Origin: Faecalibacillus intestinalis
GTDB taxonomy: Bacteria; Bacillota_I; Bacilli_A; Erysipelotrichales; Coprobacillaceae
Length of the DNA: 64,000 bases
NCBI RefSeq assembly: GCF_003024685.1
Contig: NZ_PYLQ01000001.1
Location: 1 to 64,000 of the forward strand
Direction of reading: 5' to 3'
Part shown: in pieces, positions 4,640 through 51,613 of the stretch
Numbering within the stretch: position 1 is the stretch's first letter
Layout of the letters: each line of letters begins with the position of its first letter
The notes under the pieces: model-generated
Told to the model about the DNA's origin: nothing
Database searches by the model: none
Seen by the model: the letters and a program-made list of their open reading frames with translations, nothing else
Program-made: the position numbers and the translations under genes

Positions 4640-5827
4640 ATGATGAAAAAACTCTATTTATTATTACTTTCATTATTGATGACATTTACTTTAACAGGAT
4701 GTAATCAACAAGTAGAAAAAGCATCTTCTAAGCAAAGTGTAATACTTTCTTTAGAACAAACAAGTAGCCAGGATGTAGATGTTTATGTTGATCAAGATCA
4801 AATTGATACTTTAAAAAGTCAAGGTGCAGGAACTTATGAGCTAAAGTTAACTAAAGGAAATCATGAGTTAAAAGTTGTACAAGATGGTGAAGAAACTCAA
4901 AAATCGTTTTATGTAGACTCTAAAGAAACCTTATATTATCAAATTACAAATATAGAAAACCAATTACAAATAGAAACAGATCAGGTTTCTTTTGATGAAA
5001 ATAATGTTCAAGATATTTTAAATAAAATAGAAGAATATAGTGGACAACCATATATTGAAATCAATCACAATACTCCTACTTTTAAAGAAAATGAATATAC
5101 TACAAAAACATATATTCAATTAAATGATTTAGATGAATATGGACGTACTCAAAAAGATCAAGCTTGTTTAGGTCCTGAAACACTTCCAACAAATAAAAGG
5201 GAATCTATTGGAATGGTTAAACCGTCCGGATGGAAAATACAAAGATATGATGATTTGATTTCTACAAAATATTTATATAATCGTTGTCATCAAATTGGTT
5301 TTGCTTTAAGTGGTTTAAATGCTGAAGAAAGAAATTTAATGACGGGAACACGTTATTTTAATGTTACAGGTATGTTGCCTTTTGAAGAAGAGGTTAGAGA
5401 TTATATTAAAAATACGAATCATCATGTTTTATATGAAGCTATTCCTGTATATAAAAAAGATGAATTAGTAGCAAGAGGTTTGATCTTACAAGCAGCTTCT
5501 ATTGAAGATGAAACGATTCGTTTCTGTGTTTATATTTATAATGTACAACCGGGTGTTACTATTGATTATCAAAATGGAACTTCAAGAAAAGCCAAAGAAG
5601 GAGAACCAACTTATGGCATCAAAGAAGCAAAAGATCCATTTGGTTATCATAATAAGTCAAGTAATAAAAGTAAAAAGTATGTTATTAATATAAAAAATAA
5701 AAAATATCATGATCCAAATTGTTCAAGTGTTTCAAAAATGAGCGAACAAAATAAAGAAGTAGTTACTTCAACTTCAAAAAAATTACAACAACAAGGATAT
5801 ACTCCTTGTGGTATCTGTCAAAAATAA
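4640..5827 (+). CDS. Secreted lipoprotein with DNA/RNA non-specific endonuclease domain and Cys-rich C-terminal domain
   Basis: This 395-residue protein has a lipoprotein signal peptide with lipobox LTGC, giving lipid attachment at Cys20. A beta-rich spacer (about 30-125) follows. The central domain (about 135-310) matches the EndA-like DNA/RNA non-specific endonuclease family: the beta-beta-alpha metal motif appears as NRCH followed by a GTRYFNV segment with the metal-site Asn. The last 50 residues contain a His-x3-Cys and a terminal CGICQ, resembling an Ada-like zinc-binding module. It probably degrades extracellular nucleic acid at the cell surface. The spacing of ATG 4640 from AAGGAGG is ideal. 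Role in nutrition, competence or defence is inference. Confidence 0.85.
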   Translation: MMKKLYLLLLSLLMTFTLTGCNQQVEKASSKQSVILSLEQTSSQDVDVYVDQDQIDTLKSQGAGTYELKLTKGNHELKVVQDGEETQKSFYVDSKETLYYQITNIENQLQIETDQVSFDENNVQDILNKIEEYSGQPYIEINHNTPTFKENEYTTKTYIQLNDLDEYGRTQKDQACLGPETLPTNKRESIGMVKPSGWKIQRYDDLISTKYLYNRCHQIGFALSGLNAEERNLMTGTRYFNVTGMLPFEEEVRDYIKNTNHHVLYEAIPVYKKDELVARGLILQAASIEDETIRFCVYIYNVQPGVTIDYQNGTSRKAKEGEPTYGIKEAKDPFGYHNKSSNKSKKYVINIKNKKYHDPNCSSVSKMSEQNKEVVTSTSKKLQQQGYTPCGICQK

Positions 5828-46985: not shown

Positions 46986-47043
46986 TTGCTTTTATTATCG
47001 AATATCGATATAATGGGATTGAAATATTTATCGATATTCGATA
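46986..47043 (+). promoter_or_regulatory. PadR promoter overlapped by a perfect 15-bp inverted repeat (operator)
   Basis: TTGCTT (46986-46991), a 17-nt spacer and TATAAT (47009-47014) form the promoter. TATCGAATATCGATA (46996-47010) is exactly complementary to 47029-47043, separated by 18 nt. The arms cover the spacer/-10 region and the expected transcription start, ideal for repression by the PadR protein encoded next. Confidence 0.8.
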
Positions 47044-47057
47044 AAAGAGGTGAGAAA

Positions 47058-47378
47058 ATGGCGAGAAAAGAATTTGAAACATTAACTCCACAAATGTTTT
47101 ATATTTTACTTTCATTATATGAGCCCATATGTGGTTTAGAAATTATGGAAAAAGTAAATGAAATGACGGAAGGTGATGTTAGAGTTGGTGCTGGAACACT
47201 TTATGCATTGTTACCACGTTTTGAAAATATAGGATATATTCAATTATTAAAAGAAGAAAATAAAAGAAAAATATACATAATTACTCAAAAAGGAAAAGAA
47301 AGACTTGAATTAGAAAAGGAAAGGATGCAAAAACAAATTATTTTGTTTATGAAAAAGGATTATGAAGATGAAATATAA
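47058..47378 (+). CDS. PadR-family transcriptional regulator
   Basis: ATG 47058 follows AAAGAGGTGAG. The 106-residue protein has the PadR winged helix: TPQMFYILLSLYEPICGLEIMEKV, GAGTLYALLPRFENIGYIQLL and KIYIITQKGKERLE. Family members usually repress their own operon and a downstream membrane protein or transporter. The operator at 46996-47043 and the overlapping DUF2812 gene fit this. Confidence 0.93.
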   Translation: MARKEFETLTPQMFYILLSLYEPICGLEIMEKVNEMTEGDVRVGAGTLYALLPRFENIGYIQLLKEENKRKIYIITQKGKERLELEKERMQKQIILFMKKDYEDEI

Positions 47379-48654
47379 GTATACATTTTTAAAAAATAGA
47401 TTGTTTTATGATGAAATATTAATTCCTTATCTAGATAGAATGTCTAAAAAAGGATGGAATCTTGTATCAGTTAATTCATTTTTTAAGTTTGAAAAATCCT
47501 CACAAGTTTATAAATATCAAGTTGACTATAATCTATTAACGGATGACTATTTAGAAACTTTAGACCATTTAGGATATGAACATGTTTGTTGTATGCAAGA
47601 TATGCATATTTATCGAAATGTTAATTTAGATGCGGAAGATTTATCAAGTGATGAAGATGTTTTATGTGAGGCAAAATTAAAAATGTTTAAACCATGGGCA
47701 ATTGCTATGTGCATTCTTGCAACTATGATCTTTTATGGTTTTACAAGTTTCTTTTCTTGGTTGTATCGTTTTTCTTGGGGTTCGATATTTTTAAATTTAA
47801 ATGTTTGTTTCATTTTTTTTCTTATTTATGTAGGCTGTTTTTTATGGCTATTTGCAGCATTGTTTATTTATTTAAAGAGACGTGCTTTAAAGAAAAGAAC
47901 GTATTCTTATCAAAAGTTTAAATATTTAGATGGTTTTGTTCGCATTGTTATAGATATTTTAGCTATTTTGATGATTGGAATGTTATTTGTTTTAAAAATG
48001 AATAACTTAAGTTCACTTTTAAGCTTTTTGGGTTATTTTATATTAATTACATTATTTGCGACAATTATTAATACAAAAATTCCTTTAATTAAAAATCCAA
48101 TCAAAAAGAAAATAGCAGTGATTGTTTCTGTTGCTGTTTTTGTAGGTGTTTACTTTTTGTATAATGAAATTGATTTTTCAAAATTAGATAAACAAGAAAT
48201 GACGATCACTTTGCCAAAAAATAAAAGGATAGATGAAAATAATTCAAATCTACTTGTTGATACGACAACTTTTATTCAAAAAATAGGTAAAGATAAAGAT
48301 GATGGAGAAGCAATTTATTCTTTTGAAGGTTATTATCAATGTTTAAATACTTTTGTTTCAAAAAATATTTTTAAAGAATTGGTTCTTGAACGTGAAAGAC
48401 AAACAAGAATGCCAAGTGATAAAGAGATTGACCAAATCGTTGAAGAAAAAGGTTCATGGCGTAGTGATGAAATTGGATATAATACATATCAAAATGTTTT
48501 AAAGAAATTTAAAAAAAGAAAATCAATGTATTTTGACCAAGTTGTTGAAATTGACCATTATCAATTAGGAATCAAAGGTAAAAAAGTGTTAGTTGTATAT
48601 GATGAAGATATTGATGATTTTTATCATCATTACATAAACTTTATACAAAAATAA
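47362..48654 (+). CDS. DUF2812-domain membrane protein
   Basis: The 430-residue protein starts at ATG 47362, overlapping padR by 17 nt (ATG 47368 is an alternative). Residues 1-90 form the DUF2812 domain (MSKKGWNLVSVNSFFKFEKSSQVYKYQVDYN). Several membrane helices follow (about 110-130, 145-170, 190-215 and 220-255). A soluble C-terminal region (about 270-430) shows no known motif. PadR-DUF2812 pairs are common in Firmicutes and are thought to respond to membrane stress, but the function of DUF2812 is unknown. Confidence 0.85.
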   Translation: MKMKYKYTFLKNRLFYDEILIPYLDRMSKKGWNLVSVNSFFKFEKSSQVYKYQVDYNLLTDDYLETLDHLGYEHVCCMQDMHIYRNVNLDAEDLSSDEDVLCEAKLKMFKPWAIAMCILATMIFYGFTSFFSWLYRFSWGSIFLNLNVCFIFFLIYVGCFLWLFAALFIYLKRRALKKRTYSYQKFKYLDGFVRIVIDILAILMIGMLFVLKMNNLSSLLSFLGYFILITLFATIINTKIPLIKNPIKKKIAVIVSVAVFVGVYFLYNEIDFSKLDKQEMTITLPKNKRIDENNSNLLVDTTTFIQKIGKDKDDGEAIYSFEGYYQCLNTFVSKNIFKELVLERERQTRMPSDKEIDQIVEEKGSWRSDEIGYNTYQNVLKKFKKRKSMYFDQVVEIDHYQLGIKGKKVLVVYDEDIDDFYHHYINFIQK

Positions 48655-48661
48655 TGGAATA

Positions 48662-48690
48662 TTGACAAATTTTTGTAATTATACTATTAT
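48662..48690 (+). promoter_or_regulatory. Promoter of the CNNM/CorC-type gene
   Basis: TTGACA (48662-48667), a 17-nt spacer and TATTAT (48685-48690). Confidence 0.6.
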
Positions 48691-48726: not shown

Positions 48727-50016
48727 GTGGATTCTGCCCAGATAATGAATATCATATCATTAATCATTTTATTAATTTTATCATCGTTGTTTTCTTGTAG
48801 TGAAACAGCTTTTTTATCGGTAAGTAAAATTAAAATACGTACACTTGCTGAAGAAGGAAATAAAAAAGCAAAATTAGTAGAGTCTTTATTAGATAATCAA
48901 GATCGTTTATTAAGTGCTATTTTAGTAGGAAACAACCTAGTAAATATCGGTGCTTCGTCACTTACAACAGCAACGATTATGGCTATTTTTGGAGATGGTG
49001 CACAAACAGTTGCAATCGCAACAGGTGTTGTAACATTGTGTATTTTGATTTTTGGTGAAATCACACCTAAATCTCTTGCTACTCAAAACGCTGATAAATT
49101 AGTTTTTGCTTTAGCACCATTTATTCGTTTTGTTTGTATAATTACTAAACCAGTTGTTTTTGTGTTGAATATTATTACAGGATTTATTATTAAACTTTTA
49201 GGTGGTAATCAAGAACATGGCCCTAGTTTAACTGAAGAAGAATTGAAAACAATTGTAACAGTTGGACATGAAGAAGGTGTTCTAGAAAAAGAAGAAAAAG
49301 AAATGATACATAATGTTTTTGAATTTGGTGAAACTGAAATCAAAGAGATTATGACACCACGTATTCATGTTGAAAGTTTACCGGATGATTGTACATATGA
49401 TGAATTAATGAATGTTTATCATGATGCACAGTATTCTAGATATCCTATTCATGATGAGTCTTTTGATGAAATTATAGGTGTTTTAAATATGAAAGATTTG
49501 TTGTTTATCGATATTGATAAAGAACATTTTGATGTTAAAAAGTATATGAGAGAGACTTTTGTGGTCTATGAATTCAATCAAGTCAATGATGTTTTTGCTT
49601 CAATGAGAAAGGAACATGCAACACTTGCTATTGTATTAGATGAATATGGTGTTATGAGTGGAATTGTTACTTTTGAGGATATTGTTGAAGAAATCGTTGG
49701 TGAAATTGATGATGAATATGATGATACAAGTGATGATATTGTTAAAATCAATGATCATGAGTATTTAGTAGATGGTAGTTTAAATTTAAATGAGGTCAAT
49801 GATGAAATTGATACTCATTTTGAATCGGAAGATTTTGAATCAATCGGTGGTCTTGTTTTAGGAGAGTTTAGTGGTGTTCCTAAAATAAAAGATAAAATTG
49901 AATTTCCAGGAGTTACAATTATTATCGAAAAGATGCATAAGAATCGAATTGAACTTCTTAGATTAATAATACATGAAATGAAAGAAGAGGAAGAAGGAGA
50001 GGAAAAACATCAATAA
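48727..50016 (+). CDS. CNNM/CorC-type (HlyC family) transporter-associated membrane protein
   Basis: The 429-residue protein has a DUF21 (CNNM) membrane domain (about 5-190, FSCSETAFLSVSKIKIRTLAEEG and FGEITPKSLA), then a CBS pair (about 205-330). A CorC_HlyC transporter-associated domain follows (about 340-425, HEYLVDGSLNLNEVND). Homologues extrude or sense Mg2+. The start is taken at GTG 48727, 10 nt after AAAGGAG; ATG 48745 is possible but would cut the N-terminus by six residues. The downstream RumA-like gene follows after 28 nt. Confidence 0.9.
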   Translation: MDSAQIMNIISLIILLILSSLFSCSETAFLSVSKIKIRTLAEEGNKKAKLVESLLDNQDRLLSAILVGNNLVNIGASSLTTATIMAIFGDGAQTVAIATGVVTLCILIFGEITPKSLATQNADKLVFALAPFIRFVCIITKPVVFVLNIITGFIIKLLGGNQEHGPSLTEEELKTIVTVGHEEGVLEKEEKEMIHNVFEFGETEIKEIMTPRIHVESLPDDCTYDELMNVYHDAQYSRYPIHDESFDEIIGVLNMKDLLFIDIDKEHFDVKKYMRETFVVYEFNQVNDVFASMRKEHATLAIVLDEYGVMSGIVTFEDIVEEIVGEIDDEYDDTSDDIVKINDHEYLVDGSLNLNEVNDEIDTHFESEDFESIGGLVLGEFSGVPKIKDKIEFPGVTIIIEKMHKNRIELLRLIIHEMKEEEEGEEKHQ

Positions 50017-50044: not shown

Positions 50045-51352
50045 ATGAAAACAACAGTTGAAATTAAAAAAATGGGAATCAATGGAGAAGGTATTGGTTA
50101 CATTAATCGTAAAATTGTCTTTATTAAAGGGGCATTATTAAATGAAGAAGTAGAAATTGATGCCAAACAATACAATAATAAAAATTATTATTTTGGTGAT
50201 TTAATTAGAGTCATTAAACCTTCACCAATGCGTGTTAAAAATCCATGTCGTGCGAATAAAGAATGTATGGGGTGTAATTTATTACATTATGCTTACCCAG
50301 CACAATTAAAACATAAAAAAGATTTAATTAAAGAATCTTTAAAGAAGTATACAGAATTAGATCGTTCACAAATTAAGATTGATCAAATTATTGGGATGAA
50401 TCAAAAAAATGGTTTCCTTACACAAGCTAATTTACCAATTGTAGATTTTAAAGGAAAAGTTACTTTTGGGATTTATCAAAGAGAAACAAAATATTTAACA
50501 GTGATGACAGGGTGTATGAAACAACATCCATTAATTAATCAAACATTATTACAATTGGAAGAAGTTTTTAATAATCATCAATGCAAAACATATAATGATA
50601 AATTTAGAACAGGTTTAAGATTTATTAAATTACGTGTTTTCCAAGATAAAGTACAAGTCATCATTATTACAGGGAAAGACGGTTTAAAAGATGAAGTGGT
50701 AAGTGATATTAAAAAATTAAAACAAGTCAATGGTTTATTTATGTCAATTAATACTTCTAAATATCAAGATTTTGAAAGTCAAGGTTATAAGAAGATTTTT
50801 GGAAATACGAAAGAAGAATTTATTTGTGATGGTAAAAAATATATTATGTCTGTTAAAACAACTTTACCAGATCATTTAGAATCTTTTGAAATTAGAAATA
50901 AGATTGTTAAAACAATGGTCAAAGGAAGTAAAAAGATTATTTCTATTAATTGTGAAAATGGTATTTTAGAAATGAATTTAGATCAAGAAGTTGTTGCTAT
51001 TGATGAAAAGAAAGATAATATTGAAAGTGCTACTTATAATGCTAAATTATTAGGAAAAGAAAATATTAAATTTGTTTATGGTCAACCAATTAAAAAAATG
51101 GTTACTTTTGCAAAAAAGAAAGTGTATGATACAGTGATTATTCAAGGAGTCAATGGGATTTCTAATGAATTAAAGGATACTTTAAGACTTGGAAAAGTAC
51201 AAACAGTCATTTATATGAATTCTTCAACATCTATGCTTGCAAAAGATTTGCAAGAATTATCAAAATATTATAAAGTAGAAGAGATTAAAGCAGTAGATAG
51301 TCATATGTATCAATCATATGTGACATCAATTGCTAAACTTACAAAAAAATAG
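50045..51352 (+). CDS. TrmA/RumA-family RNA methyltransferase-like protein with missing catalytic residues
   Basis: The 435-residue protein keeps the family N-terminus. A TRAM domain (1-58, KKMGINGEGIGYINRKIVFIKGALLNEEVE) and the iron-sulfur ligands C68, C74 and C77 (with C in MTGCMKQHP as fourth) are intact. The C-terminal half is degenerate: DLYCGxGT is SINCENGI, DPPRxG is IQGVNGI, and the catalytic SCNPxTLARD segment reads NSSTSMLAKD with Ser in place of the nucleophile Cys. It likely cannot transfer methyl groups by the usual route. RNA binding through TRAM and the cluster may remain. ATG 50045 follows AAGGAGG. Confidence 0.85.
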   Translation: MKTTVEIKKMGINGEGIGYINRKIVFIKGALLNEEVEIDAKQYNNKNYYFGDLIRVIKPSPMRVKNPCRANKECMGCNLLHYAYPAQLKHKKDLIKESLKKYTELDRSQIKIDQIIGMNQKNGFLTQANLPIVDFKGKVTFGIYQRETKYLTVMTGCMKQHPLINQTLLQLEEVFNNHQCKTYNDKFRTGLRFIKLRVFQDKVQVIIITGKDGLKDEVVSDIKKLKQVNGLFMSINTSKYQDFESQGYKKIFGNTKEEFICDGKKYIMSVKTTLPDHLESFEIRNKIVKTMVKGSKKIISINCENGILEMNLDQEVVAIDEKKDNIESATYNAKLLGKENIKFVYGQPIKKMVTFAKKKVYDTVIIQGVNGISNELKDTLRLGKVQTVIYMNSSTSMLAKDLQELSKYYKVEEIKAVDSHMYQSYVTSIAKLTKK

Positions 51353-51367
51353 GAGGAAGGAATAAAA

Positions 51368-51613
51368 ATGGAATACGATTATACACCAAGAGGTGTCTGT
51401 TCAAGAAATATCCATGTAGAAGTTGAAGATGGGATTGTTAAAAATGTTATCTTTACAGGTGGATGTTCAGGAAATACTCAAGGAGTTGCTGCACTAGCAA
51501 AGGGTATGAAAGTTGATGAAGTTATTGAACGTTTAAAAGACATCAAATGTGGAGCAAAACCAACAAGTTGTCCAGCACAGCTTGCAAAAAGTTTACAAGA
51601 GCATGCTAAATAA
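51368..51613 (+). CDS. TSCPD-domain (TIGR03905-type) protein
   Basis: The 81-residue product has YTPRGVCSRNIHVEVEDGIVKNVIFTGGCSGNTQGVAALAKGM and ends with CGAKPTSCPAQLAKSL. This is the TSCPD fold also seen at the C-terminus of vitamin B12-dependent ribonucleotide reductases, where its Cys residues bind metal. As a stand-alone protein its function is unknown. A perfect AGGAGG is 8 nt upstream; it lies 15 nt after the RumA-like gene in one transcript. Confidence 0.92.
   Translation: MEYDYTPRGVCSRNIHVEVEDGIVKNVIFTGGCSGNTQGVAALAKGMKVDEVIERLKDIKCGAKPTSCPAQLAKSLQEHAK

Follow-up and report, generated by a model that had tools for sequence, protein, structure and literature searches.

An RlmD/RlmCD/TrmA-type protein that appears to have lost its m5U chemistry and is retained under selection throughout the Coprobacillaceae

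The window analysed here, a 64,000-nucleotide stretch of contig NZ_PYLQ01000001.1 from Faecalibacillus intestinalis, encodes a protein of the RNA m5U methyltransferase type in which, judged by alignment to active enzymes, the m5U chemistry is almost certainly lost. An orthologue is present in all 43 genomes of the family that were examined, sampled as one per species, and in all 20 genera. Purifying selection on the protein is well supported, and it has probably taken on a new, non-enzymatic job. From its sequence and predicted structure we lean towards a methylation-independent, RNA-binding pseudo-methyltransferase re-purposed from an m5U enzyme of the third COG2265 group of the Bacilli. A preliminary description made from the window's letters had proposed that catalysis was lost and that the protein is kept under selection, and both proposals stand; it missed the fourth iron-sulfur ligand, the family-wide scale of the loss, the central-domain signature and the link to YihY, all of which are described below.

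The gene product and its active site

The open reading frame has a clean start and stop, with a ribosome-binding site (aaggagg) immediately 5' of position 50045, in agreement with the earlier reading of an intact frame. The gene, its domains and the altered catalytic positions are as follows.

50045..51352, + strand: RlmD/RlmCD/TrmA-type protein of 435 aa, apparently inactive, orthologue of the third Bacilli COG2265 group
50054..50203, + strand: TRAM domain, residues 4-53 (Pfam PF01938, 25.1 bits against a cut-off of 21)
50345..50839, + strand: central (RNA-contacting) domain, residues 101-265, with higher conservation among inactive-clade members than among active orthologues
50840..51349, + strand: Rossmann methyltransferase domain, residues 266-435, fold retained and catalytic motifs gone
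50861..50875, + strand: degenerate motif X (FxQxN to TLPDH), residues 273-277, by alignment
50942..50962, + strand: altered glycine-rich SAM loop SINCENG, residues 300-306, by alignment
51137..51157, + strand: degenerate motif IV (DPPR to IIQGVNG), about residues 365-371, by alignment
51221..51223, + strand: Ser393 replacing the catalytic Cys (RlmCD C408), by alignment to RlmCD
51323..51325, + strand: Thr427 replacing the general-base Glu (RlmCD E443), by alignment to RlmCD

The closest relatives of the window protein in the PDB are E. coli RlmD/RumA (1UWV, 2BH2), an m5U1939 methyltransferase, and S. pneumoniae RlmCD (5ZQ0/5XJ2). With RumA it shares the TRAM domain, the four-Cys Fe-S site and the fold; RumA is an active enzyme, whereas the window protein has lost the catalytic motifs and scores 159.8 bits against TIGR00479, the NCBIfam RlmD equivalog, under the curated cut-off of 183.55. 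RlmCD is the 23S rRNA m5U747/m5U1939 methyltransferase. The likeness to RlmCD covers the whole fold, the order TRAM-central-methyltransferase and the acid at the ribose position, but RlmCD has Cys408, Glu443, Asp381, Phe281 and Gln283 and no Fe-S cluster, whereas the window protein lacks all five residues and has the four Cys.

An AlphaFold2 model of the window protein built from 34 family sequences (mean pLDDT 92.3, pTM 0.89) matched RlmCD in a Foldseek search (5zq0_A, E 6.7e-42). It aligned with RNA-bound RlmCD at Z 41.4 over 432 residues (18% identity) and with RNA-bound RumA at Z 37.8 over 406 residues (Z 37.6-37.8 across RumA structures). The TRAM-central-Rossmann fold typical of active m5U RNA methyltransferases is present in the model, and the predicted fold gives no sign of a collapsing protein, though a common fold says nothing of function. 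The TRAM domain named in the preliminary description is confirmed by the Pfam score, and its KxxGINGEG motif is near-invariant across the family. Pfam matches to Ogg-HhH and Methyltransf_31 lay under their cut-offs and were disregarded.

Catalytic residues were mapped by residue-by-residue alignment of the window protein to S. pneumoniae RlmCD, in which C408 bonds covalently with the target uridine (U747 or U1939), E443 acts as general base and the base to be methylated is held by F281, Q283 and D381 (PMC6235398). Besides the Ser and Thr replacements listed above, D381 is changed to Q367, F281 to T273, Q283 to P275 and Y293 to N285; the ribose-binding acid (E333, here D320) is the only RlmCD active-site position kept. 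The alignment thus agrees with the earlier calls that the catalytic Cys is Ser (within NSSTSMLAKD, where C408 aligns with S393) and that DPPR is replaced, and in the window protein it revealed no motif that was shifted but present. A shifted catalytic Cys was considered for this protein and ruled out: LAKD/LARD anchors motif VI, and the nearest Cys of the methyltransferase domain is C303, in motif I. The claim of an altered glycine loop holds for the window species but not for most family members, whose motif I reads SLNCGxG.

The same losses extend across the clade. The motif VI catalytic Cys was found in none of the 26 inactive-clade members tested, against 15 of 15 active proteins. Equivalents of F281, Q283 and D381 are lost in nearly all inactive members and that of E443 in most. 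Nor is there conservation at the acids of motifs I and III, at Y293 or in motifs IV and X; the ribose-binding position is D or E in 24 of 26. In Thomasclavelia alone, a Cys precedes the catalytic position by one residue (YSCQSYST); the remaining catalytic motifs are gone there.

Phylogeny, paralogues and selection

We built a tree of 81 proteins comprising the inactive clade, Erysipelotrichaceae and Bacillales orthologues, an RlmCD-like group and a short group. The inactive proteins form one clade (support 100/100) within the third paralogue group, and the RlmCD-like and short paralogues split off (100/99) from it and from the Erysipelotrichaceae and Bacillales members. All groups besides the inactive clade look active. 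Because the inactive proteins are a single clade, the simplest history is one loss of catalysis at the root of the family. The orthologue in G057 (L048:4020-5336, - strand), which lies deep within the Erysipelotrichaceae and beside YihY, has Cys to Ser and Glu to Gln changes with DPPR and FFQLN intact, in what appears from its residues to be an independent, earlier-stage loss of catalysis.

The third group is probably that of YfjO, so that B. subtilis YfjO and S. pneumoniae SP_1901 (COG2265) would belong to the same orthologous group as the window protein; the B. subtilis YfjO sequence itself is outside the tree. One Bacillales member of the tree (L146) is adjoined by an HhH-GPD glycosylase gene, and we take yfjO to have such a gene beside it as well (yfjP-yfjO); the group name leans on this. 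Bacillales members of the group have their active-site residues intact, unlike the window protein. The YfjO-like paralogues of Acholeplasma, a lineage-specific expansion of the YfjO type, likewise differ from the inactive clade in that their active sites are reported to show no major changes (PMC7226160). Open-licence papers searched for an inactive COG2265 protein, YihY with RumA, or a Faecalibacillus RNA methyltransferase yielded nothing on the inactive family.

The preliminary description had raised an active paralogue elsewhere in the genome, and two intact ones were found, each with DPPR, the motif VI Cys and HVE: an RlmCD-like protein with a TRAM domain (C1:181998-183299) and a 378-aa protein without one (C17:32535-33671). 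Stops that had been reported for the C17 copy fall outside its ORF. The same genome also encodes TrmFO and an RlmA-like gene. Compensation for absent m5U enzymes was considered and set aside, there being no sign of a need for it with TrmFO, RlmA and the two RumA-type paralogues present.

Genera with the orthologue include Faecalibacillus, Thomasclavelia, Longibaculum, Stoquefichus, Massilimicrobiota, Beduini, Sharpea, Kandleria and Eggerthia. The gene is full length except in G036 and in a few copies cut by contig ends (e.g. G001, G018). The G036 locus reads as two overlapping ORFs (L046:3935-4930 and 4927-5331) that split near the central/methyltransferase boundary, through either a frameshift or a true split.

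Over 34 family sequences, with identity down to 30%, 27 alignment columns are invariant. dN/dS (Nei-Gojobori) for congeners was 0.048 for G003/G004 and 0.22 for the window species and G003, a pair for which the active paralogues gave 0.10 and 0.09; more distant pairs were left uninterpreted because their synonymous sites are saturated. Taken together, dN/dS well below 1, presence in 43 of 43 genomes, monophyly and the two intact paralogues make loss of catalysis with retention under selection well supported. Mean pairwise identity in inactive versus active orthologues was 0.53 versus 0.49 for TRAM, 0.42 versus 0.42 for the Fe-S arm, 0.45 versus 0.37 for the central domain and 0.36 versus 0.52 for the methyltransferase domain, and the shift in central-minus-methyltransferase identity was reached by none of 20,000 column permutations. 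Constraint has shifted off the methyltransferase domain and onto the central one.

Iron-sulfur ligands, central-domain signature and gene neighbourhood

The cluster ligands, the signature and the neighbouring features of the window are as follows.

50246..50275, + strand: iron-sulfur ligands Cys68, Cys74 and Cys77, by alignment to active paralogues
50474..50506, + strand: signature [FY]QRxx[KR]xxxxM, residues 144-154, confined to the inactive clade by sequence counts
50513..50515, + strand: fourth iron-sulfur ligand Cys157, by alignment to active paralogues
48662..48690, + strand: promoter-like site of the gene cluster, TTGACA-17-TATTAT (11 of 12 sigma-70-like matches; not evidence of function)
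48727..50016, + strand: CNNM/CorC-type membrane protein (Pfam PF01595, PF03471, PF00571), the upstream neighbour in most of the family
51368..51613, + strand: TSCPD-domain protein (TIGR03905), 15 bp past the inactive gene; this neighbour is limited to Faecalibacillus, Thomasclavelia and their close relatives

The set of cluster Cys at the RumA/RlmD positions is complete in the window protein: C68, C74 and C77, which the preliminary description had recognised, were upheld by alignment, and C157 had been overlooked. All four are present in 35 of 38 inactive members and in 56 of 60 active relatives. The signature QRxx[KR]xxxxM occurs in 35 of 35 four-Cys inactive members, in 0 of the 3 Cys-less ones and in 0 of 60 active orthologues. 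The three exceptions (L043, L044, L047) have lost all four Cys and the signature while retaining the gene, and since this joint loss is confined to one clade it was counted as a single event. Four active-looking proteins of the sister family (L058, L060, L066, L067) have lost cluster Cys and kept all catalytic motifs.

We also scanned 294 genomes of the order with a degenerate DNA pattern of the signature. Matches were obtained in 35 of the family's 43 genomes, and those without one include motif losers and members whose residues lie outside the pattern; in 251 sister-family genomes it gave eight scattered single matches, about as many as a reversed control pattern, and these are put down to chance.

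Residues that are newly near-invariant lie mainly in the central domain (Q145, R146, K149, M154, N165, F193, D212, N236, Q241, F243, Y248), and K149 aligns with the RlmCD RNA contact H151 and Q241 with N249. At the position of R127, the pivotal RNA contact of RlmCD, the window protein has Leu125 and the inactive clade varies, so the ancestral contact with the RNA loop has been at least partly lost.

The preliminary description had called the gene 'well expressed in an operon'. The sequence shows a tight gene cluster, with gaps of 28 bp and 15 bp flanking 50045-51352, but expression level is unreadable from it, and the total of sigma-70-like sites in the region is not above shuffles. Upstream of the CNNM gene the window encodes a PadR-like regulator (46986-47378) followed by a 430-aa predicted membrane protein (47362-48654; DUF2812-like by eye).

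Most genera have the order CNNM - YihY/BrkB - inactive gene, with YihY overlapping or nearly overlapping the inactive gene. The order in Faecalibacillus and Thomasclavelia is CNNM - inactive gene - TSCPD - small membrane protein - dnaE - polA; YihY is non-adjacent in these two genera and in Sharpea and Eggerthia, and the sole YihY of the window genome (C24:141569-142270) lies away from the inactive gene. In five genomes (G015, G020, G022, G028, G030) a YihY/BrkB membrane domain is followed, in one fused protein, by a further RumA-like copy that is more degenerate (704-722 aa; L068:458-2572, L070:338-2506, L071:162-2279, L073:1133-3268, L053:2145-4271), and in the five aligned the four cluster Cys are retained and the QRxx[KR] signature is absent. 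YihY also lies 5' of some active orthologues (Amedibacillus, Longicatena), so the link either predates the loss of catalysis or is independent of it. Directly 3' of the inactive gene, several genera have rnfC of the Rnf electron-transport complex (L100, L102, L112 and others), and others have RmuC.

The active orthologue follows NifS - ThiI - RlmA in Holdemanella and several relatives, while the inactive gene of Beduini follows NifS - ThiI - YihY; NifS-ThiI synteny shared between an active and an inactive gene supports orthology by position. RlmA lies about 760-770 bp ahead of the active orthologue at L118, L123, L126 and L152. RlmA-type enzymes methylate a G in helix 35 beside U747 (PMC4605293), and the NifS-ThiI-RlmA cluster hints at an RNA-modification role of the ancestor near 23S rRNA helix 35. 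This is a hint and no more because the YfjO-like SP_1901 of S. pneumoniae is uninvolved in m5U747 or m5U1939 (PMC4605293).

Candidate roles of the protein

The retained TRAM domain, central domain and Fe-S ligands are compatible with an RNA-binding, redox-sensing or regulatory role, as had been suggested. In the explanation we favour, the protein would descend from an m5U RNA methyltransferase in the third COG2265 group of the Bacilli whose chemistry was lost once, in the family's ancestor. The ligands suggest a [4Fe-4S] cluster bound by the four Cys, as it is in RumA. RNA binding is suggested by the retained TRAM and central domains, and the TRAM, the central groove (with the QRxx[KR] site at the RlmCD H151 position) and the cluster may jointly bind a specific RNA, with the dead Rossmann domain as a putative scaffold. 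Gene order and the fusions of paralogous copies point to a partnership with the YihY/BrkB membrane protein in most genera. The likeliest action would be to bind or fold RNA without modifying it, like the chaperone activity of TrmA, possibly gated by the redox state of the cluster. E. coli TrmA belongs to the same superfamily but is also an active enzyme and, to our knowledge, has neither a TRAM domain nor an Fe-S site. It chaperones tRNA folding through its RNA-binding domain, independently of methylation, and in the bovine mitochondrial homologue of Trm2 a key catalytic residue is missing (PMC11301382). Against the favoured explanation stand the Leu at the R127 contact, the absence of YihY beside the gene in Faecalibacillus, and the Cys-less members L043, L044 and L047.

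It is hardly credible that the gene is a decaying pseudogene, drifting while the two intact paralogues cover methylation. The presence of those paralogues would allow it, as would evolution about twice as fast as theirs and the split frame in G036, but the reading is largely refuted by universal retention in full-length form apart from G036 and contig-edge copies, and it sits poorly with the low dN/dS, the 27 invariant columns and the rise of a conserved new signature. We think it unlikely that the Rossmann domain binds SAM or another adenosine ligand for a different reaction, one without the m5U Cys/Glu chemistry. Such an enzyme would explain the SLNCGxG of most members and the ribose-binding acid in 24 of 26, and since RlmCD F281A and D381A bind SAM at normal affinity (PMC5614603), loss of these two residues need not end binding. 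However, the other features listed above (the motif I acid, Y293, the motif III acid, motifs IV and X) are unconserved, the methyltransferase domain is the least conserved part, the loop of the window species is SINCENG, and conservation analysis found no new cluster of invariant residues in the pocket.

In IRP1, cluster loss changes RNA binding, and by the same principle loss or oxidation of the cluster here could alter RNA binding or the function of YihY, making the protein a redox or iron sensor; we consider this doubtful. The four Cys persist in 35 of 38 members despite dead catalysis, the signature was lost together with them, and rnfC is directly 3' in several genera. Moreover, the enzymes can do without a cluster: the Cys have been lost in 4 of 60 active relatives, which still look active, and S. 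pneumoniae RlmCD is cluster-free (PMC5614603). On the other hand, the Cys are kept equally often in active relatives (56 of 60), their joint loss with the signature is one event in one clade, and a structural cluster predicts the same pattern, so that a sensing and a structural cluster would fit equally well. A role in protein contacts only, in which RNA binding has been abandoned and the protein partners or regulates YihY (or CNNM) from the cytoplasm, is improbable: the conserved CNNM and YihY neighbours and the YihY fusions speak for it, and the near-invariant KxxGINGEG of the TRAM domain and the four genera in which YihY is not adjacent speak against it. The favoured RNA-binding explanation and the redox-gated, changed SAM-binding and protein-binding roles are not all mutually exclusive.

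Proteins of this kind are readily labelled 'RNA methyltransferase' on similarity, and here that label would be incorrect across an entire bacterial family. The idea that RNA-modifying enzymes are kept for RNA binding and folding, beyond modification, has so far drawn chiefly on laboratory-made TrmA and TruB mutants, and a pseudo-methyltransferase that is fixed and universal in a family offers a natural test of it. The role of the RumA-type Fe-S cluster is isolated here, the cluster ligands having outlived the chemistry, and the YihY link is a lead on the function of a widespread membrane-protein family. More speculatively, and with only a small chance of being right, this family of gut bacteria as a whole may carry a class of Fe-S-dependent, RNA-binding pseudo-methyltransferases with a YihY partner that would tie an RNA or ribosomal assembly both to the membrane and to redox or iron state.
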